Origin: a virus
DNA: 21,238 nt
Reading direction: 5' to 3' (one strand)
Virus record (IMG/VR): IMGVR_UViG_3300005841_000089
Coordinates: 1 to 21,238 of that record
The notes under the pieces were generated by a model, which was not told where the DNA came from, ran no database searches, and was given only the letters and a program-made list of their open reading frames with translations. Shown here in pieces: positions 9,985 to 20,720 of the stretch (position 1 is its first letter; each line of letters opens with the position of its first letter). Both the position numbers and the translations under genes were made by a program.

Positions 9985-10391
9985 CGCTGGCCACCGGAGC
10001 CGAGGGGCATGCGATATGTGTGGCTGTGGGGCACCGCGTTCAGCAGCCGGGCTATCCGCGCCATCGCCACATTGCCCTCATGGTAGGTAAAGGTCAGGTT
10101 GGTGCACGCGGTATTCCGCAACTTCTGACGGAGACGAAGCAGCAGCACAGCCAAAGCCTGCGGCTCGGTGCACCATGCGAAATGCACAGCGAACACGCCG
10201 TCATCTAGGTCTTCAGAACAGTTGATGCCGGCGATGCAGCGCTCGCCTTCAAGGGCTAAGATTGCGGGCTTGTCCCAGCATGCGGGAGGGAAGCGCATCC
10301 AGCCATTCTCTTGGAGAAGCAAGCCAGCACGATAGGCCGCGGTCATCCCCACTTGCGATTGGCATAGCTTGTCGACCTCAGTGATCGTCAC
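9981..10391 (-). CDS. GNAT-like acetyltransferase fold protein, function unknown
   Basis: I start this gene at GTG 10391 (four-base GTGA overlap with the preceding stop, AGGAG upstream), giving 136 residues. The longer frame to 10568 only runs antisense through its neighbour. It contains 'DKPAILALEGERCIAGINC', a central 'AVHFAWCTEPQALAVLLLRL', and a C-terminal 'FTYHEGNVAMARIARLLNAV' followed by HSHTYRMPL. The last portion resembles the closing N..A..l...G....Y.m motif of GNAT proteins. The acetyl-CoA loop (Q/RxxGxG/A) is not clear, so catalysis is uncertain. Coupled on both sides inside the early-left operon. Confidence 0.5.
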   Translation of the reverse strand: MTITEVDKLCQSQVGMTAAYRAGLLLQENGWMRFPPACWDKPAILALEGERCIAGINCSEDLDDGVFAVHFAWCTEPQALAVLLLRLRQKLRNTACTNLTFTYHEGNVAMARIARLLNAVPHSHTYRMPLGSGGQR

Positions 10392-11158
10392 GCTGCGATC
10401 TCCTGAATGCTGACACAGCTGGGGCAGTCTGCTTCGACGCCCTCGAGTGTGAGGACCCGTCGAATGTCCTGGCACATGCCGCATGATGGTTCCGCGCGCT
10501 GGACCGGTTCGGGCAGCTGGCGTGACCGGGCTGAGCGCAAGACGTAGGAGCCATCCTCCTCGCGCCACAGGTAGCCGTAAGTCTCAGCCATGCGCTTCCA
10601 CCGCTCCGGTAGCGCATCGATCTCGGATTGGTCGCTAGCCTCGGCCGCGAGACGCCTCATTGCCTCGTCGAAGCGCGCCTGCTGCTCCCGACGCACGGCC
10701 AGTTCCGCGGAACGCCTACTCCGCAGCGCTTCGTCGTTCCGCTCCCATCTGCCAAGGATCTCTACGCACTCGGACGTGCTCGGAAAGAACCTGCACGTGC
10801 GGAGCGCCTCAGCGACTAGGAACTCGAGCGCGGACTTCGGGTACGTGCCGATGGCCAACTCGTAAGCGCGCACGCGCAGCTTTCCCGTAACCTCGTCGTC
10901 CTTGCGTCGCGGCAGCGTGGTCAACATGCGGAGGCAGCGGTCCAGGAACTGCGCATCTCCGGTCGCGAGTGGCGGGAGCGGCATGGTGGCGATCGCCATG
11001 GCGGCGTCGAGCTGTTCATCGGACAGTCGAAGCGCCGGCGCCGAAGATCCGCTCGTCAAGCTCTCGCTCGAAGCCGTCTCGCTGATCGACGTCGAGATGG
11101 CTGGGAGAAGTTCGCCTACCGGTCGCGCCGGACGGGAGTTGGTGGGGTGGTCGGTCAT
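10388..11158 (-). CDS. Probable phage replication protein (helicase-loader-like) with C-terminal CxxC...CxxC
   Basis: The ATG at 11158 (AAAAGAGAA upstream) gives 256 residues. Residues 1-45 are Ser/Thr-rich and disordered. Residues 46-140 are helical, including 'KSALEFLVAEALRTCRFFPS' and 'ECVEILGRW', a pattern I associate with phage replication accessory proteins. Residues 140-200 form a charged helix. The C-terminus has Cys226-x2-Cys229 and Cys245-x2-Cys248, a likely zinc ribbon. It follows the initiator-like gene and overlaps it by 143 bases in another frame. An alternative ATG at 10999 would remove the overlap but has no ribosome site. A helicase-loader role is inference from order (initiator, then loader). 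Confidence 0.5.
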   Translation of the reverse strand: MTDHPTNSRPARPVGELLPAISTSISETASSESLTSGSSAPALRLSDEQLDAAMAIATMPLPPLATGDAQFLDRCLRMLTTLPRRKDDEVTGKLRVRAYELAIGTYPKSALEFLVAEALRTCRFFPSTSECVEILGRWERNDEALRSRRSAELAVRREQQARFDEAMRRLAAEASDQSEIDALPERWKRMAETYGYLWREEDGSYVLRSARSRQLPEPVQRAEPSCGMCQDIRRVLTLEGVEADCPSCVSIQEIAA

Positions 11159-11702
11159 TTCTCTTTTCTCGCGGGTCGTAGGCTCCGCCCCAGCCGAGGG
11201 CGACAATGGCTTCGAGCAGACGGCCAGGGGGCCACTCGTCGTCAGCCATCCCTTCGACCTTCCGGACAAACTGGCGGTGCGCCGTCGCGGTATTCGTCGA
11301 GTTCTTGGTCTTCCGGTTCTTCAGCAGATCCGCCCAGACGTCCGGATCGGCCCAAGCGGGGCAGGGAAAATCTACCGGGAAGCGGTGCCCCTTACGCGCG
11401 GGCGGGGTATCCCCATCCGGGTGGGTAGGGGCGGGGGGGTTAGAATTATTTTCATTGGGGGGGAGGGGAAGGGAGGGCGAAACGTCACCGGCGTCACAAA
11501 CGTCACTTTCGTCACATGTGACGGTCTGTGACGCTTTGAGACGTTCGCGTTCACGCCACTCGGCCGTTCGCCGGGCGCCAGATGACTTCGGCTTCGGCTC
11601 TGCGCGAACCTGCGCCTCCAGCTCAGCGATCGCGGCGAGCAACGCGTCACCCGTGACGCCGGCGGCGATCAGATGCTTCACGGCTGTTGCGATGACGCTC
11701 AC
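11016..11702 (-). CDS. Phage replication initiator-like protein (contains candidate origin)
   Basis: GTG at 11702 overlaps the preceding stop by four bases, giving 228 residues. The N-terminal helices (VKHLIAAGVTGDALLAAIAE, LEAQVRAEP) lead into a basic 'GARRTAEWRERERLK' segment. A low-complexity linker follows, rich in Asp then Pro (TCDESDVCDAGDVS; SLPLPPN). The C-terminal domain 'FPCPAWADPDVWADLLKNRK' plus 'LLEAIVALGWGGAYDP' has the W...GW.g.Y.P ending seen in DnaT/phage replication proteins. The linker is encoded by 9-bp spaced DNA repeats and G-tracts, as in lambda O, where the origin lies within the initiator gene. The biochemical role is inferred. Confidence 0.6.
   Translation of the reverse strand: MSVIATAVKHLIAAGVTGDALLAAIAELEAQVRAEPKPKSSGARRTAEWRERERLKASQTVTCDESDVCDAGDVSPSLPLPPNENNSNPPAPTHPDGDTPPARKGHRFPVDFPCPAWADPDVWADLLKNRKTKNSTNTATAHRQFVRKVEGMADDEWPPGRLLEAIVALGWGGAYDPREKRNDRPPHQLPSGATGRRTSPSHLDVDQRDGFERELDERIFGAGASTVR
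11419..11477 (+). other. Two G-quadruplex-type tracts flanking an AT-rich core
   Basis: The plus strand has two sets of four closely spaced G-runs: 11419-11439 (runs of 3, 3, 4 and 7 G) and 11457-11477 (runs of 7, 4, 3 and 3 G). Between them lies a 17-bp AT-rich core (11440-11456, containing GAATTATTTTC). This is inside the replication-initiator-like gene and directly adjacent to the CGTCAC repeats. An easily melted core beside repeats is how plasmid and phage origins are built. G-tracts on one strand could hold it open. Role inferred. Confidence 0.5.
11483..11533. repeat. Candidate replication-origin iterons (CGTCAC repeats and palindrome)
   Basis: CGTCAC occurs at 11483, 11492, 11501 and 11510, exactly 9 bp apart. 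It is followed by inverted copies GTGACG at 11518 and 11528. The fourth and fifth copies form a perfect 14-bp palindrome CGTCACATGTGACG (11510-11523). A further divergent pair (CGTCAC 11645, GTGACG 11653) lies 110 bp away in the same gene. The array lies in the coding region for the linker of the initiator-like protein, next to an AT-rich core. Iterons inside the initiator gene are the established arrangement in lambdoid phages. That these act as an origin here is inference. Confidence 0.55.
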
Positions 11703-12073
11703 ACGACCCGCCAGTCGATTTCGGGCCACAATGCACGTGCCAAGGCCCATCTCAGTGGGAAGTCGCGGACAACGAAGCCTTTGCTGTCCTCTACGACCTG
11801 GCGGCCGTTCTCGACATACGTGAAGTCAGCAGTGAGCCGCGCCTGCTGTCCGTTCTCCAGCATGACGGGTTGACCTGCGACCTCGAACCGGAACACGGGT
11901 TGCTGTTCCAGCCGCTCGATCTTGCCGGCGCGCTGGAGCAGATGCAGTTCGTTGCACCGCTTCGCCTCCCGGCGGCTGGCATGCTCGTGCCCATGAAGGC
12001 AGTTTGACTTCTTGGCGCCGTACTTGCTGCCCGAGGCCTTCTTCTGAGCGAAGGGATTGAACGCCGCTGTCAT
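11699..12073 (-). CDS. DUF1064 family protein (putative nuclease)
   Basis: A 124-residue protein (MTAAFNPFAQKK) with a four-base ATGA overlap with the upstream gene. 'SKYGAKKSNCLHGHEHASRR' and 'EAKRCNELHLLQRAGKIERL' then 'QPVFRF' form the canonical DUF1064 opening (kYgakk...DS..EAkry.EL.llqraG.I..le.Qp.f.l). 'LTADFTYVENGRQVVEDSKG' gives the acidic D...E-D-x-K signature of a restriction-endonuclease-like fold (Asp in 'ADF', Glu-Asp, Lys). Such proteins are common in phage replication/recombination modules and are thought to be nucleases. Here the usual DS..E is 'AS..E'. Substrate is unknown. Confidence 0.85.
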   Translation of the reverse strand: MTAAFNPFAQKKASGSKYGAKKSNCLHGHEHASRREAKRCNELHLLQRAGKIERLEQQPVFRFEVAGQPVMLENGQQARLTADFTYVENGRQVVEDSKGFVVRDFPLRWALARALWPEIDWRVV

Positions 12074-13208: not shown

Positions 13209-13970
13209 CTAGTGCCTCACGAACTCGACGGGTCGCTGCATGGTCCAACACAGGCCGCAGGTACCGCAGCAATCGGTCTTTCCGGTCTGCACGGGGCAGA
13301 GAACGTGTTTGCTCTCCGACGCAGCGGTGATCACGAGGCTGTCCACACCCGAGAACCGGATCACGCAGCGCCCAGGCCAGTCGGCGTTGAGGGCTGCGAC
13401 TGCGGCGCCGATCCGGCTGGTCCGATCCCTGGCGGTGAACCCGAAGACGTGCAGCTGCGGCACTTCTGCGAGGAGGACGGACCAGAGATCGGCATAGGCT
13501 GGGCTGTAGAAGTCGCCGAGGATGTGCAGCCGGACGGCGAAACCGCGCGGGTGCTTGCGGCCGAGGTCGACGACCTCGTCGATCAGCCGGGCTTCCAGCG
13601 CCATGCCCGCCATGTGGCGGCGCGACCAGTTCATGTTGTTGCCGTAGCAGGTCGACCACTCGCCGCAGGACCGCGGGCAGGTCGCGCGCTCCTCCAAGGT
13701 GAGGGTGTAGAGCGGGAAGCCTTTCCAACGGCCTTTGGTTACCAGCCGCCCTATCTTCCGCTGGTTCATGCCCGAGATGAGCAGACGGGGGCTGTCAGCG
13801 GGGTGCACGACGCGGCTGGGGAAGAGCGTCCGCGCGTCAGCGGCCGCGGGATGGTCAGGCAGCAGCTTGATGCGTGCACCGCTGCCGCTCACCGGCTTAT
13901 TGGCGATTCGGTGCAAGGAGCCGCCGTACTGCACCGGGCGAGCGGTCTGCTCGCGCGTCGGGAGACTCAT
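13209..13970 (-). CDS. Gp88-family cysteine-motif protein
   Basis: A 253-residue protein (MSLPTREQTARPVQYGG), ATG overlapping the previous stop by four bases. The centre has 'FPLYTLTLEERATCPRSC' leading to CYGNNM, i.e. Cys98-x3-Cys102-x5-Cys108-Tyr. 'RLHILGDFYSPAYADLW' (147-163) follows, and the C-terminus has a dense cysteine group (Cys225, 234, 235, 238, 241). This matches the mycobacteriophage gene product 88 family. Its N-terminal cysteine triad and 'lHv.GDFys' strand resemble a radical-SAM-like barrel with a second metal site. Activity is unknown. It is encoded early in the left arm. Its counterpart in the right arm is the DUF5131 protein. Confidence 0.8.
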   Translation of the reverse strand: MSLPTREQTARPVQYGGSLHRIANKPVSGSGARIKLLPDHPAAADARTLFPSRVVHPADSPRLLISGMNQRKIGRLVTKGRWKGFPLYTLTLEERATCPRSCGEWSTCYGNNMNWSRRHMAGMALEARLIDEVVDLGRKHPRGFAVRLHILGDFYSPAYADLWSVLLAEVPQLHVFGFTARDRTSRIGAAVAALNADWPGRCVIRFSGVDSLVITAASESKHVLCPVQTGKTDCCGTCGLCWTMQRPVEFVRH

Positions 13971-16486: not shown

Positions 16487-17659
16487 ATGATCGAAGTCAA
16501 CCGTAAGCAGTTTACCCGCGCGCTCGACCTGGCGTCGGCAGTCGTGGGCAAGTCCAGCACCATCCCGATCCTGCAATCAATGAAGGTTACGGCGAACGGC
16601 GCCTTGCGTCTGGAGGCCACCAATCTCGACAACTGCACCTGCGCTGAGCTGCCTTATGAAGGCGCCGCGGGCAACTTTCTCCTGCCCCAGCCGCGCATGC
16701 TGCGGAGCGCTATCAACCAGGCAGGCGGCGATGACGTCAGCGTGCTTCCTGCCGACGATCGCTCCATCGAGGTTCGCTCAGGGCGGCTCGGCAGCAAGCT
16801 GCTCACTATGCCGGTATGCGACTTCCCGCCCTTGGATCGCATTGGCTTCGAGGAGTTTTCGGCAACGCTGGGCGCGGCCGAGTTCAAGCAGCTGGCTCGT
16901 CTCGTTCCTGCGATCTCGCAGGAGGAGACGCGCTACTACCTCAACGGCATCTGTGTGAAGCGGCTTGATGGCTGGACCTATCGGTTCGCGGCAACAGACG
17001 GCCACAAGTTGATGATCGTCGATATCCCGCTGCCCGATGCAGTCGGCATCATCCCTGACAACACTATCATTCCGCGCGATTGGCTGACCATCGTGCTGGC
17101 GCGGCTGGCCAAGGCCAAGGAGGGCGCCCGCCTCACGTTCGGGCGCATGGCCGTGCCGAATAACGCTGGTCCGGATCTGCCCCTCGCTCCGGGCGGGCCG
17201 CGGATCGCGCTGCAAGGCGATCTCGACGGCATCGTCTACTCGGTGACCGGCAAGTTGATCGACGGACAGTACCCTGACTACCAGCGGGTGGTGCCGACCG
17301 ACACTCGGTACGTTGTGCGGGTGAGCCGACGCGAACTCGTGCAGGCCATCTCTGCTCTGGCTTCCCTTAGCTTCGACAAGTCGTTCCGAGCGGTGAAGCT
17401 GACGTTCCCAGCCGGAAAGCTGCGGTGCGAGCTGTTTAACGTCGAGTTGGGGACGAGCACCTTCGATATCGACGCCGAACATAATGTCGCGGCAGGCCTC
17501 GAACAGATTGGGTTCAACGCCAAGTACCTGCTTGCCATGTGCAACTCGCTGACCGGCGAGGAGATGCAGCTGCACCTGTCGGCGCACGACGCACCGGCGA
17601 TCGTGACCGACCCTGCCGACACCGCCTTCAAGGGCGTAATCATGCCGATGAGGGTCTGA
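16487..17659 (+). CDS. dnaN: DNA polymerase III beta sliding clamp (phage-encoded)
   Basis: A 390-residue protein with AAGGA nine bases before ATG 16487. It spans all three clamp domains. Landmarks are 'SSTIPILQSMKV' (residues 23-34), 'RFAATDGHKLMIVDI' (166-180, matching the conserved ATDGHRLA), 'GKLIDGQYPDYQRVVP' (255-270, matching the conserved kLIDG.fPdY.rViP) and the C-terminal 'VIMPMRV' (matching MPMRL). The dimeric ring encircles DNA and gives the polymerase processivity. It is slightly longer than the bacterial form (about 366-375) and no host dnaA/recF genes flank it, so it is not the chromosomal copy. It lies in the repressor-controlled right arm. Confidence 0.93.
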   Translation: MIEVNRKQFTRALDLASAVVGKSSTIPILQSMKVTANGALRLEATNLDNCTCAELPYEGAAGNFLLPQPRMLRSAINQAGGDDVSVLPADDRSIEVRSGRLGSKLLTMPVCDFPPLDRIGFEEFSATLGAAEFKQLARLVPAISQEETRYYLNGICVKRLDGWTYRFAATDGHKLMIVDIPLPDAVGIIPDNTIIPRDWLTIVLARLAKAKEGARLTFGRMAVPNNAGPDLPLAPGGPRIALQGDLDGIVYSVTGKLIDGQYPDYQRVVPTDTRYVVRVSRRELVQAISALASLSFDKSFRAVKLTFPAGKLRCELFNVELGTSTFDIDAEHNVAAGLEQIGFNAKYLLAMCNSLTGEEMQLHLSAHDAPAIVTDPADTAFKGVIMPMRV

Positions 17660-17662
17660 GCA

Positions 17663-18073
17663 ATGCGCACGGGTACCGCAGCATCCTGGTGGGCCAGCCG
17701 TGACGGCGAGTTCTTCACCTCGGGGCCGCACACCACGCGCGAGGACGCGATCTTCGCCGGTCGGGAGGATTTCGAAGGCCAGGGCTTCTACATTGTCGAG
17801 GCGGCGTCAGAGGCAATCACCTTCAGCGCCGCTCGTCTGATCGACGATCAGTACTTCGACCGCGATGACCTGTTCCACTCCGATGGTGATGGTCCCGACC
17901 GGCGCACCAACTCGAAGGCAGCCGACGCCGAGTTGCAGGAGATGCTTGACGCGTGGCTCGTGCGCCATGCTGACACGTTCGTTGCACCCACCATGTTCGC
18001 CTGGTCGCGCGGCAAGGAGCTGATCCCGGCCGGCGCCGTCAGCGACGAGCTCGAGGTGCAGCACGATGGCTGA
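17663..18073 (+). CDS. Hypothetical phage protein
   Basis: A 136-residue protein (MRTGTAASWWASRDGEFFTS) that starts four bases after the clamp gene and overlaps the following gene by eight bases. 'GPHTTREDAIFAGREDFEGQ' and 'GFYIVEAASEAITFSAARLI' suggest an alpha/beta fold. The C-terminus is acidic and Trp-containing. No family recognised. The close packing suggests one operon with the clamp and the DUF5131 gene. Confidence 0.6.
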   Translation: MRTGTAASWWASRDGEFFTSGPHTTREDAIFAGREDFEGQGFYIVEAASEAITFSAARLIDDQYFDRDDLFHSDGDGPDRRTNSKAADAELQEMLDAWLVRHADTFVAPTMFAWSRGKELIPAGAVSDELEVQHDG

Positions 18074-19139
18074 CGGCACCAAGATCGAGTGGGCGGACGC
18101 CACGCTGAACTATGTCAACGGCTGCTCGCTGGCCTCGCCTGGCTGCACCAACTGCTATGCGATGAAGCAGGCTCATCGCTTCGACGTGCGCCGCGGTCTC
18201 ACCCAGATGACCAAGGGCGGCATGGTCTGGACAGGCGAAATCCGCCTGAACGATAAGGCTCTGCAGCAGGCTCTGGCGTGGAAACGCGGCCGCCGGATCT
18301 TCTGGAACGCACACGGCGACCTGTTCCACGAGAACGTGCCCGACGCGGCGATCGACCGGCTGTTCGCCGTCTGCGCGCTCACGCCGCAGCACACGCATAT
18401 GATCCTTACGAAGCGCTCGGCGCGGATGCGGGAGTATCTGACGAAGCTCTCCACCATTTGGCACGATGCCGGCGATCCGTTCGACGATCGCATCGGATCG
18501 CTGCTGGTCGAGCTATCCGGCTCGCCCTGCGCCATCGGTGTGTGGGAAGATCAGTTCATCCTTCCGAACGTCTGGCTTGGCGTCAGCGTCGAGGACCAGC
18601 AGCGCGCGGACGAGCGCATTCCTGACCTGCTTAACACGCCAGCCGCAGTGCGCTTCATCAGCGCGGAGCCGCTGCTCGGACCCGTCGATCTAGGCGCCGT
18701 TCGCTGGGATGTGGCGGGCTATCCGATGCTCGGGGCATTGCCCAACCCGGCCGAGGCTGACGACTTTCGGTGGGCGCATCATGACACCCAAGGTATCCGC
18801 TGGGTAATCATTGGCGGCGAAAGTGGCCCGAATGCGCGACCGATGCACCCGGACTGGGCGCGCTCGCTACGGGACCAGTGCCAAGCCGCCGGCGTGCCGT
18901 TGCTGTTCAAACAATGGGGAGAGTGGGAAGTCTCGCTCGACCGTGAACGCGACGATCCCGATTGGCGCGCCAACTATACCAACGATTACGTCGATCACGG
19001 CAAGTCCAAGTGGCTGAACCTTGCTGGCGGGAGCGGCTTCCACGGGGAGCGCTTCCTCGTCATGCGCCGCGTCGGCAAGAAAGCCGCCGGCCGCCTGTTG
19101 GACGGGCGCGAGTGGTCGGAGTTCCCCGGCCATGGCTGA
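18066..19139 (+). CDS. Phage Gp37/Gp68 family (DUF5131) three-cysteine protein
   Basis: A 357-residue protein (MADGTKIEWADATLNYVNGC). The N-terminal triad Cys20-x6-Cys27-x2-Cys30-Tyr in 'GCSLASPGCTNCYAM' is the hallmark of DUF5131. Other family blocks are 'NDLFHEN'-like 'AHGDLFHENVPDAAIDRLFA', 'HTHMILTKRSARM', 'NVWLGVSVEDQQRADERIP', 'RFISAEPLLGPVDL', 'WVIIGGESGPNARPMHPDW' and 'GVPLLFKQWGEW'. The fold is predicted to be a radical-SAM-like barrel. Activity is unknown. In mobile elements the family often pairs with a tcmP partner gene, which is absent next to it here. It overlaps neighbours by 8 bases on both sides. Confidence 0.92.
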   Translation: MADGTKIEWADATLNYVNGCSLASPGCTNCYAMKQAHRFDVRRGLTQMTKGGMVWTGEIRLNDKALQQALAWKRGRRIFWNAHGDLFHENVPDAAIDRLFAVCALTPQHTHMILTKRSARMREYLTKLSTIWHDAGDPFDDRIGSLLVELSGSPCAIGVWEDQFILPNVWLGVSVEDQQRADERIPDLLNTPAAVRFISAEPLLGPVDLGAVRWDVAGYPMLGALPNPAEADDFRWAHHDTQGIRWVIIGGESGPNARPMHPDWARSLRDQCQAAGVPLLFKQWGEWEVSLDRERDDPDWRANYTNDYVDHGKSKWLNLAGGSGFHGERFLVMRRVGKKAAGRLLDGREWSEFPGHG

Positions 19140-19419
19140 CGCGCTCGCCATCGGGACCGACGACCCGCTCTTCGATCCGACAAAGCCGATGCTCGTCAAC
19201 GGCTACCGCTTCCTGCCGGCGCCGCACGACACCGGCGACACCTTCCAGCAGGCAGTTGGCATAGCCAGCGAGCTCTACTCCGACATCGAAGTGGCCGTGT
19301 GGCTCACAGCGCCCCAGCCGCTGCTCAACAACCTGAACCCCATCCAGCTGCTCGCCCTTGGCCGAAGCCCTGAGCTTCTCCGCGTGATGCAGGCTCTCGA
19401 CGAAGGAGCATACCTTTGA
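19132..19419 (+). CDS. MbcA/ParS/Xre antitoxin C-terminal-domain-like protein
   Basis: A 95-residue protein (MADALAIGTDDPLFDPTKPM) starting 8 bases inside the DUF5131 gene. Residues 47-95 read 'YSDIEVAVWLTAPQPLL' then 'LNPIQLLALGRSPELLRVMQ' and 'ALDEGAYL'. This follows the DUF2384 pattern (a..WL..pn..L.g..P..LL..g.....v...l..i..G.y) that binds toxins of the RES type. No N-terminal HTH and no RES toxin are seen in the window. The gene abuts a ParB-like gene (four-base TTGA overlap). It may be a repurposed toxin-binding or partition-associated domain. Confidence 0.6.
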   Translation: MADALAIGTDDPLFDPTKPMLVNGYRFLPAPHDTGDTFQQAVGIASELYSDIEVAVWLTAPQPLLNNLNPIQLLALGRSPELLRVMQALDEGAYL

Positions 19420-20720
19420 CCGCGCCACTCTCCCTGCTGCCGCTGGCTCAGATCAAGCCCGGGCAGAACCCGCGCCGCTACTTCGATGCCAAGAAGCACG
19501 AGGAGCTTGTCGCGTCCATTCGGCTGCGAGGTCTGCTCCAGCCGCTGCTGATCCGGCCCGTTGGTGATGACCACATCATCGTTGCTGGTGAGCGCCGGTA
19601 CCGCGCCGCCCTCGAAGTCTTCGGTGATGCCGGCGAAGTGCCGGTGATCGTCCGCGAGATGACCGACCAGGAGGCGCTCGAAGCTGCGATCGACGAGAAC
19701 GATGTGCGGGACGATGCGTCCGAGACCGAGCAGGCGGACGCCGCCGTGCGGGTTCTTGCTGCTTGCCAGGACGACCGAGCAGAGGCCGCACGTCGGCTGG
19801 GCTGGTCGCCGGCGAAGTTCGACCGACGCCTCGCGCTGGCCAACTTGTCGCCCGCGGTGAAGCTCGCGCTGGATGAGCGGCGCATCAAGGTGGGCCACGC
19901 CGAGTTGCTGGCGGTCATTCCGAGCGACAAGCAGGACAAGGCGCTCGAGACGATCACCAGCGCGGGCCTCGACGTGGCGAAGACGCGCGAGCTGCTGATG
20001 CGGGTGACGCAGAACCTCGGCGCGGCGACGTTCGACAAGACCGAGTGCACGACGTGCCCGTTCAATGCGGGGGCGCAGCGTGTCCTGTTCGAAACCCATG
20101 TCGACGACGGGCACTGCACCAACCCGGGATGCTTCCAGCTGAAGACCGAAGCTGTTCTCCTTGCGCCAGCCGAGACGGCCGCGCCGGTCGCGTCGGCAGC
20201 GCCGGAAGCGACCACGCCGGCTGCGGAACGCCCGGCGCCGTGTACCAGCCCGACCGCTACACCGCCCATTGCATCAGCAGCACCTGCCAGGAAGTCAGCG
20301 CCTGCGCCTGCAGCGCAGCCAGCTATCACTGCCAAGGACATCGCCGGCCGAACCGGAGATGTACGCGAGGCAGCATGGCGCGCCGCGCTGATCAAGGCAG
20401 GCGAGGGCGACCCGGAGATCCTGGAGGCGTTCGAGGCAACCCTGCGGGATATTTGGCGGGTCGATGCCGACTTCCTAGGGCGCTTCGGCAAGGACGAGCT
20501 GAAGTTCATCGCCAGAGAGTGCGGCCTGATCAAGCACATGGGCGAGAAGAACTTCGCCAAGATCTACGCTTGCAAGGTCAATGTCCTGATCGCCGGCATG
20601 CTCAATGCCACCGGCTTCGACTGGGCGGGTCGGCTCCCGAGCGCTCTCACCCTGGACGGAAAGTACGGGCCGCCACCGGCGCCGGCCGCCGCTCCTGCCA
20701 CCATCGCTGAAGAGGCTTGA
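19416..20720 (+). CDS. PRTRC-system ParB family protein
   Basis: A 434-residue protein starting at TTG 19416, with AAGGAG seven bases upstream. The N-terminal ParB/Srx domain (1-100) has 'PGQNPRRYFD' (15-24) and the CTP-binding box 'GERRYRA' (58-64). An HTH follows (about 117-137, AAARRLGWSPAKFDRRLALA). Residues 207-245 contain Cys211-x2-Cys214 and Cys234-x4-Cys239 (FDKTECTTCPFNAGAQ; CTNPGCFQLK), a zinc-like insert typical of the PRTRC ParB type, not of chromosomal ParB. An Ala/Pro linker (250-303) joins a helical C-terminus. It likely binds DNA or nucleotides. No ParA is seen nearby. Confidence 0.85.
   Translation: MTAPLSLLPLAQIKPGQNPRRYFDAKKHEELVASIRLRGLLQPLLIRPVGDDHIIVAGERRYRAALEVFGDAGEVPVIVREMTDQEALEAAIDENDVRDDASETEQADAAVRVLAACQDDRAEAARRLGWSPAKFDRRLALANLSPAVKLALDERRIKVGHAELLAVIPSDKQDKALETITSAGLDVAKTRELLMRVTQNLGAATFDKTECTTCPFNAGAQRVLFETHVDDGHCTNPGCFQLKTEAVLLAPAETAAPVASAAPEATTPAAERPAPCTSPTATPPIASAAPARKSAPAPAAQPAITAKDIAGRTGDVREAAWRAALIKAGEGDPEILEAFEATLRDIWRVDADFLGRFGKDELKFIARECGLIKHMGEKNFAKIYACKVNVLIAGMLNATGFDWAGRLPSALTLDGKYGPPPAPAAAPATIAEEA

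Follow-up and report, generated by a model that had tools for sequence, protein, structure and literature searches.

A probable replication origin within the O-like initiator gene of a phage, with phage-specific iterons beside a near-invariant AT-rich box

The stretch of viral DNA analysed here, referred to as the window, comprises the 21,238 nucleotides (21 kb) of IMGVR_UViG_3300005841_000089. Its minus strand carries portal, capsid and terminase genes, and its plus strand a gene for a CI-like repressor. The window includes a gene for an O-like replication initiator, which starts with a GTG codon at 11702 and shares a GTGA overlap with the DUF1064 gene upstream (Table 1). Read along the coding strand, this gene presents a segment encoding a basic helix, two CGTCAC and four GTGACG words, a pyrimidine tract, a 17-bp AT box, a second pyrimidine tract and the C-terminal domain. 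Elsewhere, the window encodes a phage DNA polymerase III beta clamp with all three Pfam domains (16487-17659, +), a ParB-like protein beyond it (19416-20720) and two GP88-related proteins (13209-13970, -; 18066-19139, +), the second of which is a DUF5131 protein.

Table 1. Features of the initiator locus, in coordinates of the window
Feature	Position	Strand	Details
O-like replication initiator gene	11016..11702	-	PHROG_678 match
DUF1064 gene (PHROG Holliday junction resolvase), upstream neighbour of the O-like gene	11699..12073	-	Pfam/PHROG annotation
Gene in lambda P position (overlaps O-like gene)	10388..11158	-	candidate helicase loader
Iteron array	11483..11533		CGTCAC at 11483, 11492, 11501, 11510 (+); inverted at 11518, 11528
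Dyad where the array changes orientation	11510..11523		perfect palindrome CGTCACATGTGACG
Second inverted pair	11645..11658		CGTCACCCGTGACG; either a by-product of peptide GVTGDA or, possibly, an additional initiator site
AT box	11440..11456		TTAGAATTATTTTCATT (coding strand AATGAAAATAATTCTAA); candidate site of unwinding or loading
G-run tract separating iterons from AT box	11457..11477	+	coding strand CCCTCCCTTCCCCTCCCCCCC; G-quadruplex/i-motif pattern
G-run tract on far side of AT box	11419..11439	+	coding strand CCCCCCCGCCCCTACCCACCC

The O-like protein matches the profile PHROG_678 (“replication initiation O-like”) with an E-value of 3e-11 over profile positions 161-316, which correspond to the linker and the C-terminal part, and all 11 aligned members match it (best E-value 2.7e-20); on its own, the profile is too broad for whole genomes, since it hits 211 of 398. 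Lambda O aligns mostly with the other half of the profile (positions 4-216), and an hhalign comparison of the profile of the present O-like family with it (probability 0.15%) detected no N-terminal homology. An AlphaFold2 model of modest confidence (mean pLDDT 66; residues counted from 11699) predicts helices at residues 2-58, disorder at 61-118 and helices at 119-180, with a helical hairpin and the basic helix in the N-terminal part; the disordered linker is encoded by DNA that includes the box and most of the iterons. As for the P-position gene, it has a homologue next to the O-like gene in most of the relatives with enough flanking sequence to show it. One of 17 members has a weak match to Pfam Inhibitor_G39P, and weak BFVD matches are named replisome organizer or helicase loader; a profile comparison with lambda P gave no match, and comparison with PDB folds returned a best Foldseek E-value of 0.74 and VIA-align Z scores below 5, from unspecific AAA+ fragments. 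Its position and the very weak Pfam and BFVD matches make the protein a candidate helicase loader; the fold comparisons support no claim.

The array was first described in a sequence-only reading of this DNA as four CGTCAC copies exactly 9 bp apart, two inverted copies and a 14-bp palindrome, all of which were found at the positions claimed. The window contains 25 copies of CGTCAC (16.7 +/- 3.6 expected), and the six gathered in 51 bp form its densest 6-mer cluster. That these repeats exceed chance was borne out by shuffling the codons of the 84-nt stretch with codon content preserved (p=0.002); a count of at least five occurred in only two of 344 in-frame 84-nt windows from 19 genes, both covering the iteron site, the background of the test being 3.2% of the 344 windows with p<0.05. 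In a whole-gene scan, the smallest possible p (0.016) was reached by the window gene and by lambda O and phage L gene 18, whose annotated origins served as positive controls and were both detected by the same kind of test. The earlier reading also placed the repeats beside an AT-rich core; the 17-bp box is real, but a 21-bp G/A tract and 5 bp intervene. Similarly, the second inverted pair is present as described, but it encodes a conserved peptide and its belonging to the origin is weakly supported: the half-sites are kept in L146 and lost in L138, L155, L157 and L198. The dyad, for its part, is also found in L146 and L208. No DnaA box (TTWTCCACA, at most one mismatch) lies nearer than ~560 bp to the iterons, the number of such boxes being that of chance, and the cumulative GC skew, uninformative on this short 21-kb fragment whose genes switch strand near 14.6 kb, has its minimum at 3.6 kb and its maximum at 15.7 kb, with no extremum at 11.45 kb.

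Short repeats also precede the AT box in homologous genes. Clusters of 5-mers reached p<0.05 under codon shuffling in 23 of 34 loci (and not in the other 11), with a combined p of 7e-32 over the 34, in which independence is overstated because several loci are close relatives. In every one of the 34, the copies fall in two or three different reading frames and the peptide of the linker drifts, which means that it is the DNA, and not the peptide, that is repeated. The words themselves vary among loci: GTGACG is used in the window, L146 and L208, CTGACG in L157, GGGAC in L134, L147 and L149, GGACA in L133 and L154, GCGAC in L139, CGGAA in L155, and GTAAC in L209 and L156. Despite their different letters, the window, L146, L208 and L147, and also L152 (with one copy missing), have the same arrangement: two inverted copies come first, then direct copies ~9-11 bp apart, the last of them 22-28 bp from the box. 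Word usage is associated with the protein, in that an aromatic residue in the basic helix (R-x-R-Y/W/F-R) accompanies TGACG or TAACG words, and where it is lacking the words are mostly GGGAC/GGACA/GCGAC or GTCACGTGAC; L155 and L198, aromatic but with different words, do not follow this rule, and the association, whose classes were assigned by eye and with simple patterns, ignores ancestry. Relatives that combine an N-terminus of winged-helix type with a related C-terminal part (L206 and L213, for example) have different linker repeats of their own, with nominal p values, given that the densest stretch was chosen for the test. In the O-like gene of L209, an HNH-nuclease-like segment (CVYCGTTEDLTADHVIPVCQGGPHDMENLVAACHGCNKSKGG) stands in frame, after the basic region and before the iterons.

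The sequence-only reading had mentioned VT/RD repeats in other phage proteins, which do occur in relatives (e.g., NVTSRDITLDNVTERD in L131). Its idea of a conserved origin with the peptide as by-product is supported, except that what is conserved between phages is the AT box with its C-tracts and not the sequence of the repeats. GTGACG triplets were also considered as a general mark of replication genes and discarded: most viral hits of the 18-base pattern fall in intergenic arrays or in repeats of proteins, and the pattern is not diagnostic by itself. One such array, GTGACGnnnGTGACGnnnGTGACG, is different and apparently intergenic (L045, L052 and L077, also L014, L040, L057 and L067); it adjoins a gene that looks, by eye, like a D5-like primase-helicase, is followed in several loci by alternating CG (GCGCGCACATGCGCGCGCG), and represents a possible second origin type. 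A BLAST search with the 161-bp origin against phages and plasmids gave no relevant match. Some assemblies end in this region: contig IMGVR_UViG_3300026088_000111 (L064/L122), a 100% match to the window phage over the O-like and P-position genes, terminates within the iteron palindrome, and L136, L144, L158 and L159 likewise stop near the box, as if assemblies branched there.

The AT box, with 15 of its 17 positions A or T, exceeds every other 17-mer of the window in A+T content and is near-invariant among 27 aligned loci and spelled almost identically in ~30 related phages and prophages; the conserved unit of the origin region is CCCCAATGAnAATAAnTCTAACCCC, which showed only one spelling outside two free wobble sites in a search open to synonymous codons. 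This codon-degenerate search, built on PPNENNSNPP with all synonymous codons allowed except AGY for serine, retrieved nine loci, seven viral and two from Novosphingobium (L128 and L135 have an identical gene sequence), and all nine read CCCCCCAATGA(A/G)AATAA(T/C)TCTAACCCCCC, their only codon differences being GAA/GAG and AAT/AAC at the wobble sites. Under the genes' own codon usage, the chance of this spelling is ~6e-5 per gene, and the same codon is kept at a rate of 90% in the box versus 43% at the other identical residues of these genes. The element is present in the genomes of Novosphingobium indicum and N. fuchskuhlense (L134, L135). A less strict DNA pattern brought in ~22 more loci with amino acid changes (E/D, N/K) at the two free sites, which are not independent evidence for the constancy of the box, since they were selected on the rest of it. 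Over 398 Sphingomonadales genomes, the box pattern with at most two mismatches gave three matches, all within O-like genes, and the reversed control pattern gave none. A codon-blind protein-profile search of 398 Sphingomonadaceae genomes found a match in 24; the variants CCCCAAAGAAATTAATTCAAACCCC, CCCCAATGATATATATTCTAACCCC and CCCCTAAGATATATAATCAAACCCC occur among these genes, and some have the C-tracts with no AT box, so the conservation of the box is strong but not absolute. A compensatory stem that seemed apparent in the nine loci (GAA..TTC versus GAG..CTC) was rejected, as it is broken by GAT..AAC, GAA..AAA and GAG..AAA.

These data bear on a first alternative, according to which the repeats and the Pro/Asn-rich segment would be kept as protein, a flexible acidic and proline-rich linker, with the DNA repetition as a by-product. 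It agrees with the fact that the box lies in one reading frame in every O-like gene found and that its peptide, PN[ED]N[NK]SNP, is recognisable, but selection on a peptide does not fit iterons that use several frames at every locus, eight of ten box codons without synonymous variation in the loci of the degenerate pattern, residue changes at precisely the two free sites in further loci, and a linker predicted to be disordered; altogether, it deserves hardly any credence. The codon-level comparison across homologues proposed in the earlier reading thus gave what an origin would be expected to give, with repeats in shifting frames, a drifting peptide and the codons of the box maintained.

On both sides, the box is flanked by tracts with G-runs on the plus strand, which make the region strand-asymmetric. 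Their patterns, two of only three of this kind in the window, recur in 14 of 28 homologues for the 11457-11477 type and in 19 of 28 for the 11419-11439 type, versus 0.84 and 2.65, respectively, expected from synonymous resampling, and the third codon position is a pyrimidine in 91% of cases in the box flanks versus 56% elsewhere. The AT region of lambda is likewise purine/pyrimidine asymmetric (PMC5043065). Both tracts may form quadruplexes or i-motifs that hold the box open. Could the array instead be an autoregulatory operator, or an RNA signal in the O-P transcript, such as a Rho-utilisation site or a frameshift signal? Rut sites are C-rich and G-poor, as is the coding strand here, and the sequence C7-AATGA could be slippery. 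Nevertheless, the C-run adjoining AATGA varies between 4 and 7 across loci, which does not suit a fixed slippery site and led to the rejection of slippage at C7, a search for a Watson-Crick hairpin in the core found none, and dyadic iterons that change together with the N-terminus fit DNA binding, so this second alternative appears very improbable.

The relationship between iterons and protein is most visible in pairs of loci whose genes are mosaic. L141 and L156 are 84% identical in the C-part and 31% in the N-part, and L139 and L152 are 82% and 32% identical, respectively; each pair has the box and the C-part in common, with unrelated N-parts and iterons, and the DNA match begins at the pyrimidine (C-) tract beside the box. 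The window and L146 represent the reverse case (32% in the C-part, 73% in the N-part). In these exchanges, the N-terminus and the iterons thus appear to travel as one module. Such exchanges, with their junction at the C-tract, also suggest a third alternative, in which the box would be a recombination boundary, offering homology for module exchange rather than acting as an origin element, and the iterons would be regulatory or origin sites. Boundary sequences are a known feature of lambdoid phages. However, the box is in frame, has the A+T richness and strand asymmetry of an origin tract, persists among phages with C-parts that are only ~20-40% identical, and has a fixed position beside the iterons, and a mere boundary is therefore considered unlikely. 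A more specific proposal, which we advance tentatively and as somewhat less than an even chance, is that C-tract, AT box and C-tract constitute a common origin core, recognised or melted in the same way whatever the specificity of the initiator, onto which cassettes of N-terminus and iterons are swapped, with quadruplexes or i-motifs in the flanking tracts possibly keeping the box open.

The reading that we favour, and hold to be very probable from sequence, is that of a phage replication origin embedded in the coding sequence of its own initiator, in the style of lambda, as the sequence-only reading had suggested; the iterons, the AT tract, the gene order and the codon test across homologues support it. 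The array, its use of several frames, the codon constraint on the box, the strand asymmetry, the order of the genes and the exchange of N-terminus and iterons at the box all point in this direction. The N-terminal half of the O-like protein would bind the GTGACG iterons, the basic helix, whose codons immediately precede them, being the probable contact, and several copies of the protein would assemble on the roughly 10-bp-phased array, straining the adjoining segment of C-tract and AT box to the point of opening. The host helicase would then be recruited by the C-terminal domain together with the overlapping P-position protein, and replication would start at this site, the unstructured linker peptide being free to follow the DNA.

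Origins within initiator genes have precedents. Those of lambda and Stx phages sit in the O gene, and their function has been tested on plasmids by silent changes in the iterons, with extra iterons being required (PMC7466680), while P22 and phage L carry iterons within their own genes that differ between O-type genes (PMC8022706). The locus resembles the lambda origin in lying in the linker region of the initiator, with ~4-6 iterons followed by an AT-rich, strand-asymmetric tract, and in the overlapping downstream gene in the P position. It differs in its iterons (6-bp words at 9-10 bp, versus 19-bp inverted repeats at ~20-24 bp in lambda), in its AT segment (17 bp between C-tracts, versus ~40 bp; PMC5043065) and in that neither the N-terminus of the initiator nor the downstream protein is detectably related to lambda O or lambda P. 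Gene 18 of Salmonella phage L also has short, 11-bp iterons (TGTCCAACGGA) inside an O gene (PMC8022706), with a word resembling the GTCCAcGGAC iterons of L130, L133 and L154, but there the initiator is different, a DnaB-type helicase gene follows and no C-tract/AT box has been described. Another case is the oriV of repABC plasmids, which are alphaproteobacterial replicons and have this origin within repC, the gene of their initiator, where silent changes in the AT region abolish replication (PMC3155836), although it has a plasmid initiator, a large AT region and no iterons. Acetobacter phage phiAX1_330 and the replication initiation protein gp63 of mycobacteriophage BigNuz resemble the relatives of the window gene, notably L154, in the C-terminal domain, and differ from this family in having other N-terminal domains. 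The iteron test gave no significant array in the gp63 gene; the initiator-like phiAX1 gene 330 (L226, 937-1788), with its related C-terminus, has six GCAAA repeats in the linker, which are likely an unannotated origin.

Phage-specific iterons inside an O-type gene are thus already known from lambda, P22 and phage L; what is new is a near-invariant box common to phages with different iterons, the C-tracts surrounding it and an initiator N-terminus not detectably similar to that of lambda O. In the literature searched, mostly outside subscription journals, we found neither the shared box nor its C-tracts nor the exchange of cassettes described. From sequence alone, the analysis predicts where replication starts in many sphingomonad phages and prophages, a large group for which that literature reports no origin. 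The group would also offer a natural series in which evolution has separated iteron specificity from the origin core, so that site finding and duplex melting become separately testable, and in which one stretch of DNA would double as protein linker and replication signal.
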